In this document: one piece after another, positions 1 through 5,948 of the stretch
Layout: every line of letters starts with the position of its first letter
How positions within the stretch are numbered: position 1 is the stretch's first letter
Source of the DNA: a candidate division KSB1 bacterium
Lineage (GTDB): Bacteria; Zhuqueibacterota; JdFR-76; DREG01
Assembly: GCA_022566355.1 (NCBI GenBank)
Contig: JADFJB010000184.1
Coordinates: 1-5,964 of the forward strand
Direction: 5' to 3'
DNA length: 5,964 nt
Program-made: the position numbers and the translations under genes
The notes under the pieces: generated by a model
The model's input: the letters and a program-made list of their open reading frames with translations, nothing else
Database searches by the model: none
What the model was told of the DNA's origin: nothing

Positions 1-2871
1 ATCACCTTCTACTGGTGCAATCCCAGCTCCGGGTGCCCTCAACGTGATCCTCCATATCTCCTCCCTCTCGCCATCGATTGTCTCCTGGATATCAATAAAA
101 TTACCGGACTTCCACTCACCCCGGCCTTGAAAACGAAATTCAGACTCACGGTCTTCCGTGGCATTCCAGATAATGAAATTCGCCGGACGGTTATTGGTAG
201 ATGTCGATACGGCCCCATCGGCGAATCTGATTTCATAGTCCGCCGGATAGAGAATCTGCTTGTCAAAATTGGCGCCGGAGAGTGTTATTTCAAACTCGAA
301 GTCGCTGTCCCCGGCAATCCAGGCCGATGCAGTCGTGTCCAGCCGGGTTTGATCGTTATCGACAACCAGGCTCAGGCCGTCAAATACCGGCCCCTCATTA
401 TCGATGCTTAGCGCGTTGCTGGCGCTGATTTTCAGATCGTCCGCGCCATTGGTCACATCCGTCACCGAGTATGATGTCGTCAGGAAAACCTGGGCCGGCG
501 TTAAAGTGTTGACGTCGAAGGGGACCAATTCGTCCGAACTTTGGAACGTGACCCGGTAAGTACGGTCGACGACAAGTCTCTCATCAAGGACCTTAATCCC
601 GGCAATGCCACCGCTACCGATAATCCCAGAGCCTGTAATCAGGTTTCCTGCCGGCTTCAAACTCCCCTCTTCAACAAAAGGCGAAATGTATCCCGGCACT
701 TTTGGATTGGGGGTGACCACAACGGTATTGACATCGGTACCAACCACATTGCCAAAAGCGTCGATGTCGATAACAGATGATGACTCCGAAGGGGGTAGCC
801 CAGTTGTGCCAAGATTGGGTGCACCTCTGTCATAAGATACAACAGCATAATAATAGGTTTGACCATTCTCTACAGTGCTATCGACAAAAGAGTGCCGCAA
901 ACCAGAGTCATTACCCAAGTCAAAAGAAATACCGTTGACTCTAACCGGAGCCGGACCTTTGATGCCGTTTACAAGGTCGAAGGTGGCGATCGCCGTTCTA
1001 AAAGTAGCGTTGCCAAAAGCATCCGTAATGTTTTTCGATTCTAGAAAGGCCGGTTCTGTACTGCGGTAAATTTTATACCCCTCGAAATCTTTCGCACCCG
1101 GACGGCCGGTTTCAGGATTGATCAAGAAAAGGTCTACCGATTCTTCAGCTCGCCGATCCCAATAGAGAGTGACCTTGCCATCGCCGGGCACTGCGGTGAC
1201 AAATGGCTTCAAGGGCGGCTTGGCAAAATTATAATTGGCATTAAAGATTAATTGCACCGTAATTTTATTTCTTAAGAGATCATCGAGATTCTCGCCAAAA
1301 AGCATCGCAATAGAAAATGATTGGCTGCTTCCTTTTGGCAGGGAAAAGCCGCCGGAACTGTAGAGGAGACTTGCTAAAGAGTTTTGAATATCTGTAACAA
1401 ATCTCTTGTTGCTAAAGGAGTCCCAGATTAAGTCATCAGTTTTCGGCGTAATATCGTGTGTCACAAATATATGAACGCCTGTAAGGCCAATCTGATCTGA
1501 TTCGTCCAGATCTGTCGCATCAAAATTAGGCTCCCCGGCCGTTGGCATGCCATCGCCTTCGCCAAAATCGGGGCCAGGATAACCGGGATCAAAGTTGCTG
1601 ATGCCATCGGCACCCACGTCGTTGTTGAGCGGCTCGTTGGTGGAATCCCATCGGCCATTGCTGTTCAAATCGGAGAAACCCACCCAGTCCAGATCCTCAT
1701 CTCCGGTCCATAAAATCCCGGATTTAACCGCCGGGAATTCTGCGATTTCTAAACCAAAAAAGCTCGTGAGGTTCTCAACGTCATAATTGGTTTGAATATA
1801 GTTGGTGATATTGTCGATTCCTTCGATTTTATCGCCTGGCCCGCTTTCACGTGTCTCGTCCGTAAAACCATCGTCATCGTTGTCTTCATTATCGAATGGA
1901 TTACCCGGACTTTCCAGGAAGGCGAACCCGGCATAAGCAGTGGGGGAAAAACCGGTATTGCCCTTATTATCCCTATCAAACCCGTAGCTGATGTCGATGA
2001 ACGTGTCATAAAACGCGCTGTCGTCGCCAGAATCTCCCAAACCGCCAATGCCATAGTCAAACATCATTCCAAAGAAAACTTTCGGTTCCGTACCAGCCGG
2101 AACCACACCGAGATCGAAGGCAGAGATGTTGTAAATTTTGTATACCCAAAAAACCACATCCTCGGCCAACACCTGCGACCACTGCAGTCCTCTAGCGGTT
2201 ACCATGGTTCCGAGACCGCCTCGGTTTGGATCGCTCGGGACAGGCAGGTAATTAAACTCCCGGTCCGAAGCGTCATCCATCACAAAAAACGTTTCGAGAT
2301 CCGCGTTGAATTGATTCTTGCCAAAAAACCCGTTCCACGCGCCCGGCCATCCGGGATCATCGGCAAATTCAGGGCCGAATTTATCCGGCCAGACATCCGG
2401 CCAGGAGTCGGGCTTATTGCTCATGGCGGGCGTGATGTTCCGGCCAAAAGGAAACGGCCCGCGCTCAAAATTTTTACCATCCCAACCTGGGCGCGGCTCG
2501 TACCCCCACGGGGTGCCGGTAGGACCGACGTCGATATCCTCGCGATAACCGGCTTCTGCGATGTGGACCACGTTGCCGTCGCGATCGACTACTTCTGCAA
2601 TGACGATGGGCGTGGCGCCCTCAACATAAGTATGACCACTGCCTTTCGGCCACTCCGCCGGATCCGGATTATTCGGCCAGTTCCCTACCATGCCGTAATT
2701 TATGAAGGGAGTGTTTACCAAATTACCATTCATCTGCCCCCATTTTCTAAAAGTTCGCTCACCATAAACCCCGGACTGCGGATCCCCGTTTGTGCCTTGC
2801 GCCCGAACCTGTGAACTGAGAATCGCGATTAGAAATAAGGCAGAAAAACCGAATAGAAGTTTTTGAGACAT
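1..2871 (-). CDS. Large secreted surface protein with fibronectin-III-like module (3' end outside the window)
   Basis: The frame is open for 957 codons from ATG at 2871 to the left edge; I checked every in-frame triplet and found no stop. The start is supported by GGAGGA at 2883-2878, six bases upstream. Residues 1-24 form a signal peptide: a Lys near the N-terminus, a hydrophobic core at about 5-18, and a V-R-A signal peptidase site before Gln25. Residues about 60-165 are rich in Trp, Pro and Gly. Aspartate-rich stretches at 327-339 (ending DDDGFTDE) and 401-409 (DLNSNGRWD) resemble calcium-binding thrombospondin-3 or dockerin-type loops. Residues about 551-700 look like a fibronectin-III fold, with GKVTLYWD, YKIYRS at 599-604 and YYYAVVSYD at about 673-681; VVVTPNPKVPGY follows. 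I infer an exported cell-surface or secreted protein of the large FCB-type families. A type IX secretion sorting domain could lie in the missing C-terminus. No catalytic motif is visible, so its function is unknown. Confidence 0.92.
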   Translation of the reverse strand, partial: MSQKLLFGFSALFLIAILSSQVRAQGTNGDPQSGVYGERTFRKWGQMNGNLVNTPFINYGMVGNWPNNPDPAEWPKGSGHTYVEGATPIVIAEVVDRDGNVVHIAEAGYREDIDVGPTGTPWGYEPRPGWDGKNFERGPFPFGRNITPAMSNKPDSWPDVWPDKFGPEFADDPGWPGAWNGFFGKNQFNADLETFFVMDDASDREFNYLPVPSDPNRGGLGTMVTARGLQWSQVLAEDVVFWVYKIYNISAFDLGVVPAGTEPKVFFGMMFDYGIGGLGDSGDDSAFYDTFIDISYGFDRDNKGNTGFSPTAYAGFAFLESPGNPFDNEDNDDDGFTDETRESGPGDKIEGIDNITNYIQTNYDVENLTSFFGLEIAEFPAVKSGILWTGDEDLDWVGFSDLNSNGRWDSTNEPLNNDVGADGISNFDPGYPGPDFGEGDGMPTAGEPNFDATDLDESDQIGLTGVHIFVTHDITPKTDDLIWDSFSNKRFVTDIQNSLASLLYSSGGFSLPKGSSQSFSIAMLFGENLDDLLRNKITVQLIFNANYNFAKPPLKPFVTAVPGDGKVTLYWDRRAEESVDLFLINPETGRPGAKDFEGYKIYRSTEPAFLESKNITDAFGNATFRTAIATFDLVNGIKGPAPVRVNGISFDLGNDSGLRHSFVDSTVENGQTYYYAVVSYDRGAPNLGTTGLPPSESSSVIDIDAFGNVVGTDVNTVVVTPNPKVPGYISPFVEEGSLKPAGNLITGSGIIGSGGIAGIKVLDERLVVDRTYRVTFQSSDELVPFDVNTLTPAQVFLTTSYSVTDVTNGADDLKISASNALSIDNEGPVFDGLSLVVDNDQTRLDTTASAWIAGDSDFEFEITLSGANFDKQILYPADYEIRFADGAVSTSTNNRPANFIIWNATEDRESEFRFQGRGEWKSGNFIDIQETIDGEREEIWRITLRAPGAGIAPVEGD

Positions 2872-2883
2872 ATTAAATCCTCC

Positions 2884-3242
2884 ATCCTTTGTTAGGCAAA
2901 GTCCATGCCAGTTCCATCTTTTTGTTGGTGCCATAAATTTAACCAATTAATCAAAAGGTGGACTTACTGAGCCTACCACTACCAGACGTAGTAGTCTAAG
3001 CCAATTAATTAACGGTCGTAAGTTCAATTCGAGTTCAGACATAAATTTGAATTTATTTATTTTCAATATAATATATTACACAAAGGTATGCCAAGAACCA
3101 CCAAAATTTTTTACTCTTGTACATACATCTTGATTTTTCGGAACACCTAAAAGCCTTGATGTAGAAACATTGAGCGGAAACTAAAGTTGAAAGGCCAATT
3201 CATTTATTTCTTATTCACACCCCAAATTAAGGAAGTAATATC
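2884..3242. other. AT-rich divergent intergenic region
   Basis: This non-coding stretch lies between the minus-strand secreted-protein gene and the plus-strand IS110 fragment. It should contain the promoter of the secreted-protein gene, but I see no convincing -35/-10 pair or Bacteroidota-type element. It holds a perfect short palindrome at 3041-3056 and two direct copies of CCAATTAAT at 2943-2951 and 3001-3009. The part nearest 3242 is probably the remaining left-end DNA of the IS110 element. AAGGAAG at 3229-3235 is a good ribosome binding site for the ATG at 3243. The base composition is clearly more AT-rich than the neighbouring long gene. Confidence 0.6.
3041..3056. repeat. 16-bp perfect palindrome in the divergent intergenic region
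   Basis: ATAAATT at 3041-3047 and AATTTAT at 3050-3056 are exact inverted repeats around a TG centre. It could be a binding site for a dimeric regulator or a weak hairpin. In DNA this AT-rich it could also arise by chance. No T-run typical of an intrinsic terminator is attached. Confidence 0.4.
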
Positions 3243-3581
3243 ATGAGGCAGTATAAAGCCTTTCAAAAGAAGCGGGAGTCTATCCAGGGTAAAACCATAG
3301 TCGGTATAGACCCGGCGAACGATAAACATCAAGGCGTTGTCATCAATGAATTTGGTCTTCCCATCGGCAATAGTTTTCATTTTTCTGTGAGTTTTGAGGG
3401 TTACACAACGATTAAGCTAACCGGATTTAACCGACCAATAAATCCTTATATTGCCAATCATCGTCGCACGGTTAAATTCCGTGTTAAGCGCCGTGTTATG
3501 CATGATTTTGATTTTGCTTGCAGTGCCAAGATAAAGTGTGATTCCCAAGAGCACCATCATGAGTCTTTGTGGACACACTGA
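3243..3581 (+). pseudogene. IS110-family transposase, N-terminal fragment fused to attC sequence
   Basis: Residues 1-54 match the start of IS110-family DEDD transposases. The core TIVGIDPANDKHQGVV carries the first catalytic Asp (D23) of the RuvC-like domain, followed by NEFGLPIGNSFHFSVSFEGY. AAGGAAG at 3229-3235 lies seven bases before the ATG, so the 5' end is native. After about residue 54 (codon ending 3404) the frame runs into the attC-like inverted repeat and unrelated DNA, stopping at 3579-3581. The other DEDD residues, the coiled-coil linker and the C-terminal Ser domain are missing; IS110 proteins are usually about 300-450 residues. It cannot be an active recombinase. The abrupt end next to an attC-like site suggests truncation by cassette recombination or by a deletion there. 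Confidence 0.8.
3415..3489 (-). other. attC-like integron recombination site (left, imperfect)
   Basis: This is an imperfect inverted repeat around a 35-base loop at 3434-3468. TTTAACCG at 3426-3433 pairs with CGGTTAAA at 3469-3476, CGGA at 3422-3425 with TCCG at 3478-3481, and TAAC at 3418-3421 with GTTA at 3483-3486. T3477 is unpaired on the right arm, as are T3482 and A3487. Read on the minus strand, it runs from GCTTAAC (R'' side) to GTTAGCT at 3421-3415 (R' side), close to the GTTRRRY consensus. The unpaired bases fall on the same arm as in the attC at 5857-5948, so both sites share one orientation. The central spacer is nearly absent, which is atypical. A second R-box-like GCATAAC lies just outside, at 3501-3495. 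It could be a degenerate or hybrid attC, or a non-integron hairpin. Confidence 0.55.
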
Positions 3582-3615
3582 TTTCCAGCGACCATTGTGG
3601 CCTTCGCTCAATCTT

Positions 3616-3849
3616 CTATTCAAGAATTTCAAGAACTCCCCGTTTACCAGCTTTAGCTGAAACTGCTTTAAGAATTGTCCGTATTGCATTAGCATTTTGT
3701 CCATGTTTTCCAATTATTTTACCATAGTCTCCAGCACCAACACGCAACTCATAAATACAAACTGATTCGCCCTCAATCTCGGTTATTCTGACTTCATCAG
3801 GTTTGTCCACTATAGGCTTAACGATGTTTTCTAAAAATTCCTTTAGCAT
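3616..3849 (-). CDS. khpA: KH-domain RNA-binding protein KhpA
   Basis: This 77-residue protein has the usual KhpA length and layout. It opens MLKEFLENIVKPIVDKPDEV, followed by a beta strand (ITEIEGESVCIYELRV) and then the KH core GDYGKIIGKHGQNANAIRTI. The GxxG RNA-binding loop is G47-K48-H49-G50, and the Lys-rich segment after it (KAVSAKAGKRG) is typical. KhpA is a cytoplasmic RNA chaperone; in Gram-positive bacteria it pairs with KhpB and affects cell division and small-RNA biology. AGGA at 3857-3854 lies four bases before the ATG, somewhat close but workable. In many bacteria khpA sits between rpsP and rimM. Neither is here: the neighbours are a lysine-rich small gene upstream and an attC-like site downstream. 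The family call is firm; whether this is the only genomic copy is unknown. Confidence 0.93.
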   Translation of the reverse strand: MLKEFLENIVKPIVDKPDEVRITEIEGESVCIYELRVGAGDYGKIIGKHGQNANAIRTILKAVSAKAGKRGVLEILE

Positions 3850-4001
3850 AATATCCTGTTGCCATTAAAATTAGCTTTAAACATTTGATGTTGGGTCTAG
3901 AACTCAGGAATCAGGTTGCCTTACAAGAGCATTATCTTTGTGTTTGGCATGCACTTGTTCCCATTTCGCTTTCTCCTTTGGTTCAAAGAGAATGCTTCTA
4001 G

Positions 4002-4115
4002 TTACGGAGTTCTTTTTGGTTGTTTTTCCGACTTCTTTTTTGTCTTTTGTTCCTGTTTACTTTTCTTCTGTTTCTGACTCTTGTTCTTGTCTTTCTTGCC
4101 ACCCTTGTCTCCCAT
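4002..4115 (-). CDS. Small lysine-rich protein, 37 residues
   Basis: The frame starts MGDKGGKKDKNKSQKQ and ends KQPKRTP at a TAA (4004-4002). It is almost entirely Lys, Gln, Ser, Asp and Glu, with no hydrophobic core, so it should be highly basic and disordered. I recall similar short MGDKG...PKRTP-type proteins annotated as hypothetical in diverse bacteria, but I know of no defined function; nucleic-acid or ribosome association is only an inference from charge. An in-frame ATG at 4124-4122 would add MYI. I prefer the ATG at 4115 because AAAGG at 4129-4125 abuts the upstream ATG but lies nine bases from this one. It sits 84 bases after the glycosyltransferase stop and about 150 bases before khpA on the same strand. 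The -1 frame stays open past its stop to 3904. Confidence 0.72.
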   Translation of the reverse strand: MGDKGGKKDKNKSQKQKKSKQEQKTKKKSEKQPKRTP

Positions 4116-4199
4116 TATGTACATCCTTTCCTGTTATCAATCATCTTTTACCGTAAAGGTCAATATATTGTAATCTATAATTTTGTACCTTCATTGTCC

Positions 4200-5252
4200 T
4201 TATGGTTTATTTTTTAATAGTGTTTCAAAAAGAGTAATAAATTTTTTAGCAATTTTATCAGGTGAGAATTTATCTATAATTTTTTCAGCTTTCTTATTTA
4301 TATCAATCAACATGCTTTTATCATTAAGTAGCGTAATTAATTGAGAATTAAGATCAGATGGATTAGTATAATGTATAAGCGCTTCTTTAAAATCTTGAAA
4401 AAAATCTGAGCCTTTGGGAACAAAAATTGGGCAACCCGTTCCCAGGGCCTGTAAAGCAGTAGTAGAAACTACAGCCTGGTCTTTAATTTGATATTTGTGT
4501 AAAATAACAACATCGGAAGCAAAAAGATAGTCATCAAATAATTGGGTAGTAATAACCTTTTCTCTTTTAACAATGATATAAGGATTTTCGGTTTGATTTT
4601 CTTCTAGAAGTTCGTGCATATCCTCTCTGATCACCTGGAGAAGAATGGTATTGTTTCGTAGCTCTTTTGGTAAATCTCTATAATAATGTCCATATCCTCT
4701 ATGACTGAAAGAATAAACAATTTTTTTGTTTAAGGGAAGGCCTAATTTTTTTCTGGCTTCAATTTTATCTCCCGTTCTCATCTTGTAGCAGGGGAAAGGG
4801 ATAAATTCTGCGTCAGGATATGCTTTTTTTAAAAAATTTTGACGCTGATCGAAATATACTATACTGTCCCACAGTATTCTATAAAACCAAGTTCCGTCCG
4901 GAGGTCTGTTTTCATGAACTACATGCACAACTTTTGCTTTCTTTTTTATAATAGGCATGAGATTATTAAGTTTCTCACCAGGCAACACTCCAAGATCCTC
5001 GACTATAAGTATTTCATAATCATTTTCAATAAAGGGACGCGGATCTATGGTATTTGTGTTAAACCTTGTACCAAAACAGGGAAATACAAAATCTTCATTT
5101 TCTGCCGTAATTCCATCTCCATGATGATCATGCGGGTAAAATGTAAAAACTATTACATCGTGACCCATTTCCATAAAGGCTTTTGCAATTGGTTCAGAGT
5201 GCATACATACACCACTGGTTGTATTCCAGGCTGACATAAATGCAATTTTCAT
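4200..5252 (-). CDS. GT-B glycosyltransferase (GT4-like)
   Basis: This 350-residue cytoplasmic or membrane-associated enzyme probably transfers a sugar from a nucleotide-sugar donor to a surface glycan or similar acceptor; donor and acceptor cannot be read from the sequence. The N-terminal Rossmann half opens MKIAFMSAWNTTSGVCMHSE, with the acceptor-side helix PIAKAFMEMGHDVIVF at 21-36 and a strand-loop KVVHVVHENRPPDG at 107-120. The donor half begins near KKIVYSFSHRG (176-185) and holds the signature YLFASDVVILHKYQIKDQ at 242-259, then ALQALGTGCPIFVP at 266-279. The glutamates of the classical EX7E motif are replaced: the aligned positions appear to be Ala260 and Gln268. There is no signal peptide or transmembrane segment. 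AGGAGA at 5267-5262 lies nine bases before the ATG. The gene is strikingly AT-rich compared with the secreted-protein gene, which suggests acquisition. Confidence 0.85.
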   Translation of the reverse strand: MKIAFMSAWNTTSGVCMHSEPIAKAFMEMGHDVIVFTFYPHDHHGDGITAENEDFVFPCFGTRFNTNTIDPRPFIENDYEILIVEDLGVLPGEKLNNLMPIIKKKAKVVHVVHENRPPDGTWFYRILWDSIVYFDQRQNFLKKAYPDAEFIPFPCYKMRTGDKIEARKKLGLPLNKKIVYSFSHRGYGHYYRDLPKELRNNTILLQVIREDMHELLEENQTENPYIIVKREKVITTQLFDDYLFASDVVILHKYQIKDQAVVSTTALQALGTGCPIFVPKGSDFFQDFKEALIHYTNPSDLNSQLITLLNDKSMLIDINKKAEKIIDKFSPDKIAKKFITLFETLLKNKP

Positions 5253-5403
5253 CTTTTATTTTCTCCTATACTGTTTTGGGCTTTCACAAGTGTATTTTTT
5301 TAATATATTTATTAACATCATAATTTTAGTATTTTTTTAAGAATAAATTAACAATCTGCAAAAATAACTGTTTTTATTCAGGAAAGCTAATATAATGTTT
5401 AAC

Positions 5404-5452
5404 ATTAATCGTTCTGAAAGAAATCCTCTTATTACGCTCTCGAGCGATTAAT
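5404..5452. repeat. Inverted repeat in the glycosyltransferase leader
   Basis: ATTAATCG at 5404-5411 is repeated inverted as CGATTAAT at 5445-5452, with 33 bases between. Nested at its right edge is a tighter hairpin, CGCTC at 5435-5439 and GAGCG at 5442-5446. There is no T-run, so it is not an obvious terminator. It could shape the 5' leader of the glycosyltransferase mRNA if the promoter at 5500-5528 is used, or be chance. Confidence 0.35.
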
Positions 5453-5499
5453 CCTGTGCTTTAGCAAAAATCCATCCGGTGTACATCTATCATAAGCCC

Positions 5500-5528
5500 A
5501 TTATACATCATATAATTTTTTACCAAAA
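5500..5528 (-). promoter_or_regulatory. Candidate sigma-70-type promoter
   Basis: On the minus strand a perfect TATAAT lies at 5505-5500, and a weak -35 hexamer TTTTGG at 5528-5523 is separated by exactly 17 bases. It points toward the glycosyltransferase and would leave a leader of roughly 240 bases. The region is very AT-rich, so a chance -10 is plausible. In Bacteroidota-like lineages the housekeeping promoter differs from this form. Confidence 0.35.
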
Positions 5529-5714
5529 ATAGCATGATTGATAATTTTCTTCTAATAACATTTTAGTAAAGTTTACCAGCACTGAGTGTTTTTATATTTT
5601 TGTGTATGTGTTTCTCGTATAAATAACAATAAACAGACAGTAAGAGGTAAAAGGAAATAAAAATTATGCTGCTTGACTATGATTGTGATGATGTAACCCG
5701 AATAAAATTGGTTG

Positions 5715-5858
5715 TTAAATTATTTTACCTTCGAACTGGGTTTTAAATCCCGATAGTGTCTTTTGCTCAAGGCTTTGATGTGGTCTGAAACTATTGACTC
5801 CCATTAATATTAACTTAGCGTATCGATGTTCAATGATAAATGCAATTTTTGCTTTTGG
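5715..5858 (-). pseudogene. DDE transposase/integrase-core C-terminal remnant
   Basis: A 47-codon open stretch ends at TAA (5717-5715). It includes GVNSFRPHQSLEQKT, with RPHQSL encoded at 5786-5769. The N-x-x-R-P-H-Q-x-L pattern is a hallmark of the C-terminal end of rve-type DDE transposases (IS3/IS481-like), where it usually follows a Tyr; Val stands there here. The catalytic Asp and Glu residues are absent, and upstream the frame closes at a TAG (5861-5859) inside the attC R' box. This looks like the tail of an insertion-sequence transposase cut off at the recombination point. The short length means the match rests on one motif. Confidence 0.5.
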
Positions 5859-5948
5859 CTAACGTTTGCGTTCACCGGGCGGCGGAGAGCGACTTTCCAT
5901 TGCGAGAAACGGTGGCACCGCCGCTCCGGTGCAACGCATTGTTATGCC
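5857..5948 (-). other. attC integron recombination site (right, well formed)
   Basis: The arms pair as follows: GGC 5857-5859 with GCC 5946-5948; TAAC 5860-5863 with GTTA 5941-5944; TGCGTT 5867-5872 with AACGCA 5933-5938; CACCGG 5873-5878 with CCGGTG 5926-5931; GCGGCGG 5879-5885 with CCGCCGC 5918-5924. GTT 5864-5866 and TT 5939-5940 form the unpaired central spacer. The unpaired bases C5932 and T5925 lie on one arm only, matching the extrahelical bases that set attC orientation, and T5945 is also bulged. Read on the minus strand, the site runs from R'' GCATAAC to R' GTTAGCC, with extra G and A in L'' just as in known cassette sites. The loop at 5886-5917 is the variable terminal structure. 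Only integron-type attC sites are known to me with this combination. Confidence 0.83.

Follow-up and report, generated by a model that had tools for sequence, protein, structure and literature searches.

Near one end of contig JADFJB010000184.1 (C184), whose entire 5964 bp form the window analysed here, stands a compact palindrome that raises the question of whether it is an integron attC site, part of a genome that carries gene cassettes, or a dispersed repeat with the look of one. The host assembly comprises 4.62 Mb in 213 contigs, with a completeness of 98.5% and a contamination of 0.21%. An earlier note on this DNA had placed a well-formed attC at 5857-5948, in minus orientation like the three genes to its left, and had taken it as a sign of integron cassette content in the genome. 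We conclude that the element, called attC1 below, is a genuine integron attC within a small array of gene cassettes. Our main reading, with a probability of about 0.94, is that 5857-5947 is the attC of a cassette in a short chromosomal array without an adjacent integrase on the contig, either a CALIN or the distal part of an integron that the assembly has truncated, and what was observed directly for it is the anatomy, the model score, a second site in the window, a second array in the genome, and an integrase in relatives. The parts of the site are as follows, the minus strand being the top strand:

5857-5947, minus: attC1 (covariance model, fold z, pairs covarying with sites of other phyla)
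5947-5941, minus: R'' box GCATAAC, read from the sequence
5938-5926, minus: L'' box TGCGTT-(G)-CACCGG, with extrahelical base G5932
5925, minus: second bulge, A5925, on the same arm as G5932
5924-5918 and 5885-5879, minus: inner stem GCGGCGG / CCGCCGC, from the sequence
5878-5867, minus: L' box CCGGTG-AACGCA, from the sequence
5863-5857, minus: R' box G|TTAGCC, with the predicted G|TT crossover between 5863 and 5862

On the minus strand the site thus reads GCATAAC AA TGCGTT(G)CACCGG(A)GCGGCGG ... CCGCCGC CCGGTG AACGCA AAC GTTAGCC, with unpaired central spacers (AA and AAC) and both extrahelical bases on one arm. The R box pairs at only five of its seven positions, the AAC...G|TT core lying at the ends of the palindrome with partial outer pairs. 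Folded as DNA, the plus strand, presumably the bottom strand that folds, reaches -29.4 kcal/mol (z = -4.7), a value equalled by no shuffled sequence. Were attC1 active, its bottom strand (the plus strand of the window) would form the attC hairpin, whose R and L boxes an integron integrase would bind, and single-strand exchange would take place at G|TT (5863|5862), allowing flanking cassettes to be excised, inserted or shuffled. The contig stops 17 bases past R'', so that the cassette owning attC1 would lie off the contig to the right.

Similarity searches with the whole site were of little help: Rfam returned no family for attC1, blastn against plasmid and phage records gave matches at chance level only, and in relatives it found stem-sized chance matches and nothing more, a search that is uninformative because attC loops diverge and that therefore calls for a covariance model. 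In the host genome, a degenerate R''-L'' pattern matched no more often than its reversed control, and a home-made attC scanner was dropped as less specific than the covariance model. The latter was built from 15 gammaproteobacterial sites (on Thiopseudomonas, Saccharospirillum, Stagnimonas, and Oceanospirillum contigs), with the window and every site carrying the attC1 20-mer described below excluded; two loops were kept at full length and most were shortened, since a full-length MAFFT alignment had put the 3' arms wrongly. Under this model attC1 scores 37.2 bits at 5857-5947 on the minus strand (E 2e-8 in the window, 1.6e-5 in the whole genome) and ranks first across the 4.6 Mb, ahead of a site on another contig, C200:247-321, at 32.6 bits. 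A second site in the window, attC2, scores 26.3 bits (3403-3501, minus; E 1.9e-5 in the window), nothing else in the window exceeds 9.1 bits, and the maximum over 82 kb of other sequence of the host genome is 11.8 bits. The genome-wide scan scored the best candidates only and let the weaker 3403 site escape, and the number of weak sites elsewhere is therefore probably underestimated. The attC of the earlier note is thereby borne out, with all its parts in place, together with its orientation, which is that of the covariance match and of the three genes, and a covariance check of the kind proposed there yields the minus-strand match that it anticipated.

The site at 3403, which has the same orientation as attC1 and went unmentioned in that note, turns the window into a two-attC array holding one complete cassette, whose features and flanks are these:

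3403-3501, minus: attC2, terminal site of the array by the covariance model (R'' GCATAAC at 3501-3495, R' GTTGTGT at 3409-3403)
3409-5862, minus: complete gene cassette of 2454 bp between two crossover points, with coordinates set by attC1 and attC2
4200-5252, minus: glycosyltransferase-like cassette gene, 350 aa (NCBIfam TuaC-type glycosyltransferase, E 2e-7, far under the cut-off; no Pfam match)
4002-4115, minus: predicted ORF for a lysine-rich 37-aa peptide, MGDKGGKKDKNKSQKQKK..., from sequence reading
3616-3849, minus: gene for a KhpA-type KH-domain RNA-binding protein, 77 aa (PF13083, E 2e-22)
3243-3407, plus: likely N-terminal remnant of an IS110-type transposase (44% identity to an ORF of the same phylum, E 2e-10)
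1-2871, minus: flanking 957-aa ORF outside the array, an ORF call truncated at the contig end (no Pfam or NCBIfam match)

The cassette has a GC content of 34%, where the flanking 957-aa ORF has 50%, and the cassette cargo at 3616-3849 is an RNA-binding protein of the KhpA type. With three ORFs in 2454 bp it is large for a single cassette and may comprise two or three old cassettes that have lost attC sites to decay, the covariance model having found no intermediate attC between 3409 and 5862. In the proposed arrangement, the cassette that owns attC1 would be followed by this one, which would terminate in attC2. The attC sites at 3403 and 5857 are separated by 2.4 kb, and the window fits the definition of a CALIN (two or more attC sites with less than 4 kb between them and no neighbouring intI); contig C184 itself contains no intI, and its end leaves room for one beyond.

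That the host genome carries cassettes is settled by contig C200 (4748 bp), where the region 247-3711 holds seven attC sites, all on the plus strand and spaced by 400-940 bp:

C200 from 247, plus: attC, 32.6 bits
C200 from 757, plus: attC, 33.0 bits
C200 from 1170, plus: attC, 29.1 bits
C200 from 2107, plus: attC, 23.5 bits
C200 from 2650, plus: attC, 10.7 bits
C200 from 3072, plus: attC, 20.8 bits
C200 from 3652, plus: attC, 27.9 bits

Six of the seven exceed 20 bits, and the one at 10.7 bits, too weak by score alone, has R-box anatomy and the expected position. A single ORF lies between each adjacent pair, zinc-ribbon and RidA-type proteins being among the products, and the gene after the last site weakly matches inositol-phosphate synthase. 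The loops of attC1, attC2 and the C200 sites are mutually unrelated, as expected of separately acquired cassettes. The genome search that the earlier note had proposed, for an integrase gene and for further attC sites, thus succeeded in its second half, through attC2 and C200, and the cassette content that it had deduced is real; its first half returned no intI above the cut-off.

That absence bears on whether the window array belongs, as its distal end, to a complete integron whose integrase end failed to assemble, or is a true integrase-less cluster. In the 98.5%-complete host genome no protein matches TIGR02249 above the cut-off (best score, 78.5 bits), which speaks for the cluster, and the assembly lacks a complete integron, that is, an intI with the extra domain together with attI. 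The best-aligned tyrosine recombinase of the host (contig C20, 304 aa) has no counterpart to model positions 198-236, which we take to be roughly where the IntI-specific extra domain lies. Yet in C184 and C200 alike the array has its distal end on the contig and breaks off on the proximal side, where intI would be expected, and a genome of the same family, G002, encodes a full-length IntI (471 bits; contig C88, 11433-12491). The G002 contig with this gene ends with no array on the intI-proximal side, apart from one weak site at 13143-13273; another, C18, bears about eight arrayed attC sites at 4002-9382, five of them near-identical 128-nt copies with an AT-rich loop. One attC of that array (at 5369) has a variable loop that attC2 resembles (z 4.9 against shuffled loops). 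It is known that integrons can be broken up in draft assemblies (PMC9024848), and CALINs are common, their counts being inflated in draft genomes (PMC9024848; PMC9668308). Across the phylum, 28 of the 59 genomes searched, the host included, have an IntI above the cut-off; two or three copies are present in several of them, and the open frames include some of about 450-490 aa, longer than usual. We regard an unassembled integron end and a true cluster as evenly balanced for the window, and since two arrays each have their own distal end, one or both probably lack an integrase, unless there are two integrons in the genome. The host integrase would accordingly be in an assembly gap, or lost, or supplied in trans, and attC1 and attC2 would recombine through an IntI acting either in cis, from an unassembled region, or in trans.

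The left edge of the array suggests a different kind of entry, in which the cassettes were inserted at an attG-like G|TT site inside an IS110-type transposase gene and not at an integron platform. In E. coli, attG sites are known targets of integration (Loot et al. 2024, as cited in PMC12444791), and the IS110-type similarity of the ORF at 3243 breaks off near residue 54 (nt 3404), about 5 nt or less from the attC2 crossover (3408/3409). IS110 transposases appear among the matches of a tblastn search of plasmids with this kind of ORF. We nevertheless consider the attG entry unlikely. The IS110 assignment is weak: the window ORF has no Pfam match, DEDD_Tnp_IS110 (PF01548) included, and its 44%-identical relative matches PF01548 only under the cut-off (E 0.004). 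At 44% identity the exact break cannot be placed, no further part of the transposase gene turned up, and a related fragment in genome G010 ends at the same residue without any attC, so that the break may simply mark the end of alignable similarity; an attC-targeting insertion sequence, or plain decay, would give a similar picture. Matches of the ORF on viral contigs were set aside as methyltransferase-type proteins sharing the short motif VGIDPAND.

Where attC1 itself came from can be approached through its relatives. Its exact R''-L'' 20-mer, TAACAATGCGTTGCACCGGA, is shared by only eight other species contigs, of which two are planctomycete, one is from Leptolyngbya and five are gammaproteobacterial; six of the seven searched genomes of these carriers have an IntI above the cut-off, and one carrier contig (L042) bears a clear attC array. 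Loop included, attC1 is 75-78% identical to sites in planctomycetes and Leptolyngbya sp. PCC 7375, whose loops match its own at 3.4 to 5.9 sd over loop-shuffled controls. Over a 26-pair structure, comparison of four sequences gives standard pairs in 86.5% of cells, with 13 pairs invariant and five changed on both sides, and this covariation across phyla, in as few as four sequences, is no more than supporting evidence for the attC1 structure. In planctomycetes such sites form a family with a conserved loop, single or paired and directly 3' of ORFs (L040, at 5317-5406 and from 6015 on, L057, L061 and L062). A contig classed as viral (L048; IMGVR_UViG_3300033553_000696) has attC-like sites at 3249-3296 and 5194-5254, both minus. 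The likeness of the attC1 hairpin to planctomycete and cyanobacterial sites suggests cassette exchange between phyla, and attC1 may have been transferred from a planctomycete-type pool. The fuller scenario, in which an attC x attG event inserted into the IS110 transposase gene a cassette from that pool with a KhpA regulator as cargo, is less probable still than the attG entry alone; if the attG and planctomycete-pool reading were true, it would be a natural case of cassettes spreading to the chromosome outside an integron platform.

The shared loop, and the fact that the planctomycete and Leptolyngbya relatives are likewise single and in part decayed (L041, L043), could also fit a REP- or MITE-like dispersed palindrome, attC-like by chance or descent, a reading that is largely refuted and very improbable given that attC1 is single-copy in 4.6 Mb, that only four of 294 sampled planctomycete genomes match it (E<=1e-5), with one match apiece, that four planctomycete homologues (L040, L057, L061, L062) lie directly downstream of a same-strand ORF in attC fashion, and that the loops of the other attC sites of the host are unrelated to its own. 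A second match to attC1 in the host genome (14 bp, on contig C15) was rejected as chance, being located within a coding gene. The many copies by which the earlier note would have recognised a REP-like repeat are thus not seen.

As to significance, the element kind and its mechanism are already known, and the phylum commonly carries integrons; what is added is the confirmation that cassette arrays occur in a phylum that is rich in integrons and apparently uncultivated, with an integrase in about half of the sampled genomes, and a site whose closeness to those of Planctomycetes and Cyanobacteria supports cassette flow across phyla. The view that attC sites outside Proteobacteria are thinly described was overstated, as a 2021 paper provided attC models for Acidobacteria, Cyanobacteria, Planctomycetes, and Spirochaetes (PMC8352920), and one of 2022 described integrons of archaea (PMC9668308).

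Compared with known systems, the locus shares with integron attC sites (59-be) and CALINs the R''-L''-loop-L'-R' anatomy, the G|TT crossover, the extrahelical bases, and two same-orientation sites less than 4 kb apart with cassette ORFs between them, and differs in having no integrase assembled nearby and one large cassette of three ORFs. Its likeness to attC of the Planctomycetes and Cyanobacteria types (PMC8352920) is the 75-78% identity noted above, which is to individual genome sites, whereas its host belongs to another phylum and its R' box is intact, unlike the degenerate R' boxes of L041 and L043. With the C18 array of G002 it has in common the attC2 loop sequence, found at one site there, while most G002 sites are 128-133 nt long, with AT-rich loops and the five near-identical copies.
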